DNA of 64,000 bases from an uncultured Planctomycetia bacterium (GTDB lineage Bacteria > Planctomycetota > Phycisphaerae > FEN-1346 > JAACEH01), in assembly GCA_903929765.1 (NCBI GenBank), contig CAIYVX010000083.1, positions 1-64,000 of the forward strand. The letters are read 5' to 3'. This document shows positions 1-1,395 of the stretch, piece by piece. Under the pieces are notes generated by a model. The model was not told where the DNA came from, ran no database searches, and worked only from the letters and a program-made list of their open reading frames with translations. Every line of letters begins with the position of its first letter. The first letter of the stretch is position 1. The position numbers were made by a program, and so were the translations under genes.

Positions 1-128
1 ACCGCCGTGCTGATGGAACAAAGCGAAGAATGGGAAACGGGAAAAGTTTATCTGACCATAACAGAATCGGAGAACGCCTAAGCCACTGTTACGAGAGACG
101 GACCGGAAATGAATTTACAGAAAAAAAG
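1..128 (+). mobile_element. 3' end of an IS256-family (mutator-type) insertion sequence
   Basis: Frame 1 is open from the window edge to a TAA at 79-81 and encodes the last 26 residues of a protein, including EQSEEWETGKVYLT. This resembles the usual C-terminus of IS256-type DDE transposases (pattern EQ-x-EW-x(4)-Y). After the stop, the A/T-rich stretch near 108-128 (AATTTACAGAAAAAAAGTTG) looks like an IS256-type terminal inverted repeat. The exact end, the left inverted repeat and the target duplication cannot be checked because the rest of the element lies outside the window. Confidence 0.65.
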
Positions 129-699
129 TTGCTTTGCCGGGAATTTAGCCTCCTGCCTTTACAGGTTGGAACTCCATCATCCGAAGTATTACCAGCGAAT
201 CGTCGAAAGGATACGCCAAGTGTGTCCGCAATTCGGCGAATTTGTACTTAAGCCACAGGATGGTGACCCATTTAATATCCGTAATGTTCTTCTGAACTGG
301 AAAGAAAGGAACCGGCCAGACTACCTCTTCGGCCCGCACCAGCTTTCTGACGGCACGCTGCGCTTCATCGCCCTGACCACGCTCTTTCTCCAGCCGCCCG
401 AAATGCTCCCCTCGGTCATCGTCGTTGACGAACCGGAACTCGGCCTCCATCCCTACGCGATCACGGCTCTGGCGGGCATGGCCAAAGCCGCTTCCCAGAA
501 CTGCCAAGTCGTCCTGGCTACGCAATCCACTCGCCTGGTCGATGAGTTCGACCTGGAGGACATCCGCGTCATCGACTACGACCGCGAGAAAAACTGTTCC
601 CGTTGCAGCCAACCCGACCCGGTAAAGCTGAAAGAATGGATCGATGAATACTCCACCAGCGAACTCTGGGAGAAGAACGTCATCGGAGGAAAGCCATAA
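109..699 (+). pseudogene. AAA family ATPase, N-terminal half missing (cut by an IS)
   Basis: This is the C-terminal half of an SMC/ABC-like AAA ATPase of the kind paired with DUF4276 proteins. Visible motifs are the signature-like LSDGTLRFIAL (about residues 79-89), Walker B VIVVDEPELGLHP (about 104-116) and the H-loop ATQST (about 138-142). The N-terminal Walker A half is absent. The ATG at 109 probably lies inside the insertion-sequence end, so it is a chance start; recognisable ATPase sequence begins near 130 (FAGNLASCLYRL). The stop directly abuts the next start (TAA ATG at 697-702). Without a P-loop it should not hydrolyse ATP. It could still be translated to couple the downstream gene. 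The family assignment is firm; the inactivation is inferred. Confidence 0.75.
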
Positions 700-1395
700 A
701 TGGCTCCAAGATTGTACATCACCGCCGAGGGCCAGACTGAAGAAAGCTACGCCAACAATGTGCTAAAACCATTTCTGGCGGGAAGGGGCATCTTCGCCGC
801 AGTTCGCCGTGTTTGGAGCAGCCGAAAACACGGAAGGGTTTTTCGAGGAGGGTTGCGGAATTACGAAAACGCCAAAGCGGATATTATCAGGTGGATGAAG
901 GAAAACTCCGGGCAGCGTGACGCTTTCTTCACCACCATGTTCGATCTGTATGCCTATCCTCGCAATAGCCCAGGCTACGAGGCGGCCCAGGCAGAACGAG
1001 ATCCTTACAAAAAGGTCGCCATACTCGAAGATGCGCTAAAGCAGGATCTTCAGCATCCGAACTTCATTCCGTACATTCAACTACACGAGTTTGAGACGCT
1101 GATCCTGGCCGACCCGGCCAAACTCGATTGGGAATACATAGCACACGAAGGACCGATCCGGAATCTTGTCGAAATGGTGGCCGGCAAGAACCCCGAAGAG
1201 ATCAACGAAGGCCAGGAAACAGCCCCCTCGAAGAGAATCATCAAAGAGATTCCAGAATACAAAGGGCAGAAGGCCACAATAGGGCCGCTCGTTGCCGCGA
1301 AAATAGACCTGGACGTTTTACGGGAGAAATGCAAACACTTCAATGAATGGCTGACCCGGCTGGAAAAGCTTAACGAGGTTGGAGCGGACAAATAA
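700..1395 (+). CDS. DUF4276 family protein, partner of the truncated ATPase
   Basis: This 231-residue protein starts immediately after the ATPase stop, with no gap. It opens with YITAEGQTEESY, the conserved glutamate region of DUF4276, followed by FDLYAYP (about residue 82) and YIQLHEFETLILAD (about residue 125). The acidic EGQTE and FDxY motifs resemble a TOPRIM-type metal site; this is a suggestion from motif layout. ATPase-DUF4276 pairs occur in accessory and defence-like regions, and a P-loop ATPase plus a TOPRIM-like protein recalls OLD-type nucleases. Since the partner ATPase has lost its P-loop, this gene is probably a remnant of a once working two-gene system. No biochemical role can be assigned from sequence alone. 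Confidence 0.8.
   Translation: MAPRLYITAEGQTEESYANNVLKPFLAGRGIFAAVRRVWSSRKHGRVFRGGLRNYENAKADIIRWMKENSGQRDAFFTTMFDLYAYPRNSPGYEAAQAERDPYKKVAILEDALKQDLQHPNFIPYIQLHEFETLILADPAKLDWEYIAHEGPIRNLVEMVAGKNPEEINEGQETAPSKRIIKEIPEYKGQKATIGPLVAAKIDLDVLREKCKHFNEWLTRLEKLNEVGADK

Follow-up and report, generated by a model that had tools for sequence, protein, structure and literature searches.

In OLD and in GajA of Gabija, an ATPase and a nuclease are fused. HEC-01, one of the Hma-embedded candidates (HECs), is already a named candidate system. According to excerpts of PMC12839542, OLD-type ABC ATPases form pairs with Toprim nucleases, and in PARIS the ATPase AriA senses a phage protein and activates the nuclease AriB, which cleaves host tRNAs. 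For HEC-01, an excerpt of PMC12724379 lists it among the systems of Desulfovibrio piger strains, while excerpts of PMC12988326 and PMC12111858 report HECs with antiviral activity and name HEC-06 and HEC-04, respectively, but not HEC-01. A literature search, with preprints and most subscription journals outside its scope, returned no paper on DUF4276 or on the mechanism of HEC-01. The disruption of defense genes by insertion sequences (IS) is likewise already in print, with excerpts of PMC10359306 describing natural IS insertions in cas genes and IS1 and IS10 in 12 other defense gene clusters.

The window analyzed here, a stretch of 64,000 nucleotides from a planctomycete-affiliated genome, begins with a locus that we assign by its sequence to HEC-01 (HEC-01A and HEC-01B, PADLOC-DB 2.0.0), a candidate anti-phage system. 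The pair has the same best models, gene order, and adjacency as HEC-01 and differs in that the ATPase of this copy is split by an IS256-family element. Because of this split, we regard the locus as a further, broken HEC-01 and not as a working system, a clean but fairly ordinary case. As in the insertions covered by the excerpts of PMC10359306, an IS has naturally entered a defense gene; the difference lies in the element (IS256 family), the system (HEC-01), and the planctomycete-affiliated genome. We consider it highly likely that the element has inactivated a HEC-01 locus and that in intact relatives the ATPase controls a DUF4276 Toprim nuclease.

The window opens inside an IS256-family element

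Window base 1 is also the first base of the contig that carries the window (C83), which leaves nothing upstream to examine. A multicopy IS256-family element has its right end at positions 1-138 (+ strand), and the contig starts inside this element, as seen from genome matches, flank divergence, and a PF00872 match on contig C89. All or parts of this segment recur elsewhere in the genome, with 14 matches: identity is 98-100% in 13 of them and 90% in the other, and 12 of the 14 sit at contig ends. Past base 138 the flanks of the copies diverge, save for chance extra bases in a few of them; the terminus of the element is base 138, not 81. The first-pass annotation had the ATPase starting mid-protein straight after the likely IS terminus, and a remnant does start directly behind the element, at 139.

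What ends at 81 is the transposase. Positions 1-81 (+ strand) hold its last 26 codons and stop (79-81), an open frame oriented towards the ATPase remnant with a near-identical ending in a frame on C89. There, bases 1-138 recur at 98% identity and close a 156-residue frame (C89:1-429) that matches Transposase_mut (PF00872; 1.7e-34, profile 237-378 of 379). The earlier recognition of an IS256-type transposase end before 81 was thus borne out, and a transposase does belong to this IS end, as read from the C89 copy. The N-terminal part of the transposase was not found in the genome's own assembly.

The right terminal repeat, located by pattern search, occupies 120-138 (- strand), and the inner part of this repeat corresponds to the element's left end on another contig, C104. 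The right-repeat pattern had 15 exact places in the genome and one with 3 mismatches (control, 1), and the left-end pattern had 13 exact places (control, 0). Aligning the left end with the reverse-complemented right end gives agreement at 20 of the first 30 positions, complete over positions 16-27 and poor at the outer bases (counted by eye). Elements of the IS256 family make target-site duplications of 8-9 bp. With Transposase_mut, duplications of 8-9 bp, and imperfect terminal inverted repeats, this element is a member of that family.

The missing ATPase half lies at the end of another contig

When the N-terminal half of an intact homologue was searched against the genome, it matched one contig, C104, at 71127-71432 (E 1.6e-18) and 71745-71852 (E 0.003). 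A frame with Walker A opens there with an ATG at 71127, reads through 240 codons and two bases until it meets the IS left end at 71849, and ends within the IS after three more codons. From the homologue search and the open frame, C104:71127-71848 is the N-terminal part of the ATPase. Directly ahead of this left end stand 8 bases, GGGAATTT, that recur immediately behind the right end in the window (139-146), forming a target-site duplication. The first-pass annotation had proposed looking for the missing half with such a duplication, and both were found, the half at the C104 end and the 8 bp on both sides of the element. Its statement that the partner had lost its P-loop applies to the remnant in the window; in the genome the P-loop is kept, at the C104 end.

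As a control for the duplication, all 13 x 15 left-right combinations of IS ends in the genome were compared. Seven pairs share 8-9 flanking bases (six share 8, one shares 9) versus 0.003 expected by chance if base frequencies are equal, and C104-C83 is one of the seven. Two other pairs share 5 and 6 bases. This left 6 left and 8 right ends for which the search gave no partner, so that the 13 left and 15 right ends, with their 7 pairs, represent at most 21 distinct sites.

Since the body of the IS is unassembled between C104 and C83, we connect the two contigs by way of the duplication, the frame, and homology, which together suggest a junction running through the element. The corresponding empty-site frame encodes 424 residues without a stop, and an intact 394-residue homologue aligns with it through residues 8-394 at 45.5%. 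One BLAST alignment covers the whole empty-site protein despite an unmatched middle of the N-terminal part, where residues about 103-206 gave no match when searched with the nearest homologue and where the best stretch of the HEC-01A model ends at residue 105. In alignment A2, the two ATPase parts overlap solely in the duplicated GNL, within a conserved DAGNLAA stretch. The element was inserted into the ATPase gene at this stretch with an 8-bp duplication, confirming the suspicion that an IS had interrupted the ATPase-DUF4276 pair.

The assembly has 116 contigs, and many contig ends lie inside this IS, as would be expected if most cells were intact and the insertion were a minority form or an artefact of an assembler breaking at a repeat. 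We find this very improbable: a target-site duplication such as this one indicates genuine transposition, and no contig was found to carry the empty site, the homologue's N-terminal half leading to C104 alone and the C-terminal part to C83 alone. The possibility of another intact copy elsewhere in the genome was considered separately and rejected, since these searches led to C104 and C83 alone and there is one DUF4276 match; neither a second intact HEC-01A nor an empty-site contig was found among the assembly contigs.

The insertion separates the ATP-site motifs

The remnant in the window, at 139-699 (+ strand), is the C-terminal part (186 residues) of a HEC-01A ABC/OLD-type ATPase (AAA_21, 8.9e-18; HEC-01A, 7.8e-74) and covers profile positions 184-362 of 363. 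The N-terminal part on C104 matches the same model at 2.8e-26 (PADLOC), and HEC-01A is the best PADLOC model for both parts. Based on the translation and alignment A2, we take LSDG at 343-354 (+ strand) to be the ABC signature motif and VIVVDE at 415-432 (+ strand) to be Walker B. Walker A lies left of the insertion, and the signature, Walker B, and TQS lie right of it, so that the first three, instead of sharing one open frame, are divided between C104 and C83.

The ATPase of the homologue was modeled from 36 sequences (pLDDT 92.9). Among the matches listed, this model aligned with SMC heads, Rad50 heads, retron PtuA, and Septu PtuA at Z 18.9-22.4, and the best solved relative by sequence is the OLD endonuclease 6p74 (1.3e-11). 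Conservation is lowest between Walker A and the helical part, at residues 91-172 in the homologue's numbering (29.5% mean pairwise identity versus 49.6-53.5% elsewhere in the 36 sequences), and this region would suit a sensing part.

An ATG at 109, within the IS end, opens a 196-aa frame composed of 10 IS-derived residues and the remnant. As a natural start of the ATPase it was rejected, since the ten best homologues (own copy excluded) align from residue 10 or 11 of this frame, and most of the best 80 relatives have a longer frame that includes the P-loop. This in-frame ATG could instead start a right piece that associates in trans with the left piece, so that the split ATPase still works and regulates DUF4276; both pieces stay open, and a simple scan of 1-800 found 0 terminator-like sites versus 1.2 expected from shuffles. 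Several observations make this extremely improbable. First, the break falls inside the ATPase; in the homologue's model it sits in a loop that directly precedes helix 207-217. Second, none of the best 80 relatives is split in two. Third, no promoter-like site turned up when 1-800 was searched with the simple scan. Lastly, 13 of the 14 other right ends of the IS are 98-100% identical, suggesting that the element spread recently. We therefore retain an inactivated ATPase as the preferred reading.

Intact relatives point to a candidate defense system

The nearest intact homologue lies in a genome of the same order (G003:C128) and is 64% identical over the C-terminal part of the ATPase. It encodes a 394-residue ATPase followed directly by a 231-residue DUF4276 protein, best matched by HEC-01A and HEC-01B. 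We extended the comparison to the best 80 of at least 519 confirmed DUF4276 relatives in genome_contigs; these 80 span many phyla. All 80 have an ATPase frame immediately before DUF4276, and a regular expression detected the P-loop in 75; of the five others, L059, L063, and L072 run off their contigs, L094 (374 residues) is unmatched, and L136 is truncated. The ATPase is one long frame (352-490 residues) in 76 of the 80, is cut by a contig end in 3, is truncated in 1, and is split in none. Because of these 80 upstream frames, 75 with a P-loop, the ATPase family does not naturally start where the remnant does. Such a natural start was one of two refuting conditions set in the first-pass annotation, the other being a missing transposase, and neither was borne out.

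The resemblance to two-part nuclease or defense systems that had been noted for ATPase-DUF4276 pairs agrees with the match of both genes to the HEC-01 candidate system of PADLOC. The pair might nonetheless be a housekeeping or other non-defense ATPase-nuclease unit: on C104 a GMP-synthase-like gene ends 26 bp before the ATPase, and in PMC12796447 an archaeal OLD-family ATPase is reported to have a cell-cycle role and apparently none in defense. We judge this unlikely, given that HEC-01 is the best PADLOC family for both genes, that the best 80 relatives come from many phyla, and that models of PglZ, MADS, HEC-06, and type I specificity proteins match some relatives' neighbors. The neighbor scan took the nearest ORF on each side at 51 of the 80 loci (102 ORFs), with a limit of E 1e-10; among the PADLOC matches listed were single models for PglZ (up to 3), MADS (3), HEC-06 (2), and type I specificity (2). 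These are uncontrolled counts out of 102, and mad3 models also match HEC-01A itself. A defense role of the pair thus remains our preferred reading.

Several side observations were made at these loci. Just upstream of the ATPase on C104 (L043:7941-11101) are an IMP dehydrogenase-like (guaB) and a GMP synthase-like (guaA) gene, both named from their sequences alone. A second decayed HEC-01 is present in Nostoc sp. 'Peltigera membranacea cyanobiont' 210A (L136, 3310-3492), where just the last 61 ATPase residues were found before an open DUF4276, a contig end not being the cause. In Clostridiaceae bacterium DTU079 (L115:3501-4193), DUF4276 has an in-frame stop after 37 residues and the upstream ATPase is long (352 residues), and in genome G054 (L033:1983-2732), the DUF4276 beside a 371-residue ATPase seems to be broken by an in-frame stop.

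DUF4276 is predicted to have an OLD-like Toprim fold

The DUF4276 gene (HEC-01B) occupies 700-1395 (+ strand), starting directly after the ATPase stop at 699, and is the one DUF4276 match in the genome. It matches PF14103 at 1.2e-46 over the full profile (1-192 of 192), in agreement with its earlier description as intact, and its best PADLOC model is HEC-01B (3.9e-70). A search of its sequence against solved structures gave one chance-level match (E 0.29), so that the fold is a predicted one, from an AlphaFold2 model (pLDDT 94.4) built on alignment A3 (52 of 81 sequences). Both A3 and A4 (36 of 80 sequences) were hand-picked for spread, and L111, L115, L121, and L124 were excluded from A3 because their matched stretches contain a stop.

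In Foldseek, C-terminal regions of OLD proteins ranked 1-4 for the DUF4276 model (best E 7.3e-4, TM 0.45). In VIA-align they again took ranks 1-4, with Z 8.8-9.3 and an rmsd of 4.0-4.3 over 172-177 residues, and an uncharacterized Pyrococcus protein had Z 8.8. PARIS AriB followed at 7.3 and 6.8 and Gabija GajA at 6.1-6.4. The first unrelated fold, PurE, scored 6.2, so GajA is not set apart from unrelated folds and AriB barely so (about 1 above). With moderate confidence, the model suggests that DUF4276 has a Toprim fold of the OLD kind. Across the 52 sequences, E10, E14, E130, and E132 are invariant and D82 and K178 nearly so. The window protein carries all six and departs from the nearly invariant positions 17 and 203. 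These acidic residues and the lysine may correspond to the metal-binding residues of OLD. We read DUF4276 as a putative OLD-type Toprim nuclease with a presumed catalytic activity.

Of the described systems, PARIS shares the two-gene layout of ATPase and nuclease (AriA with the Toprim nuclease AriB). The DUF4276 model matches AriB at Z 7.3, and AriA models match the ATPase weakly; however, the C-terminal part of the ATPase scores 246.9 bits with HEC-01A versus 62.9 with the AriA model, and AriB was not among the 5 families matched by DUF4276 at E up to 1. tRNA cleavage and Ocr sensing are features of PARIS, and the likeness here is one of genes. OLD is nearest by structure, its C-terminal region to the DUF4276 model, and provides 6p74 as the best solved relative of the ATPase, whereas GajA is tied with unrelated folds. 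Both differ from this pair, in which ATPase and nuclease are separate genes.

The predicted nuclease has probably lost its trigger

By analogy, HEC-01 most likely works like PARIS in outline. In intact relatives, the ABC/OLD-type ATPase would serve as sensor and regulator and, upon infection, would activate or release the DUF4276 Toprim nuclease, as AriA does AriB. At this locus, the ATPase consists of a left part of 240 codons and two bases that includes Walker A and a right part of 186 codons, and DUF4276 is open. With the ATP-site motifs on separate pieces, the ATPase would be unable to work, the nuclease would be without a trigger, and the system would be dead. As the insertion parts Walker A from the signature and Walker B, the only HEC-01 of this genome is very probably dead. 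We infer both an anti-phage role of the intact pair and the silencing of this copy. Counted against this explanation are the guaB/guaA-like neighbors, the OLD TM-score of 0.45, and the tie of GajA with unrelated folds.

Since the transposase is oriented towards DUF4276, the latter may still be transcribed, perhaps from the transposase side. If it is still expressed, it must be harmless without its ATPase, and a cell that survives while DUF4276 is open would be consistent with a nuclease whose action depends on the ATPase. The locus therefore offers a clean natural break of a candidate defense system with the presumed effector gene left open. The predicted OLD-like Toprim fold suggests a testable nuclease role for HEC-01B, and the insertion adds an IS256-family case to the known routes of bacterial immunity loss.

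Other sites of the element in the genome

Of the frames open at IS ends, 15 were picked; 10 were scanned with PADLOC (9 sites) and 10 with Pfam, and PADLOC matched 2 of its 10. On contig C19 (L045:67-1125) the same IS abuts a broken DNA methyltransferase frame, with MTase_II matched from profile position 201 of 425, and on contig C28 (L047:3-1526) it abuts another, with MTase_III matched to 849 of 1057. Including HEC-01, a raw count gives 3 of at most 21 IS sites in restriction-modification or defense-type genes, in a genome with 14 PF01555 matches. It is conceivable, although we doubt it, that a burst of the IS was filtered by selection for immunity loss and that the lineage may be shedding several defenses simultaneously through one transposon. 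A further copy with an 8-bp duplication, on C47 paired with C71, abuts a frame of the phage-integrase family (PF00589; L022:422-1498).
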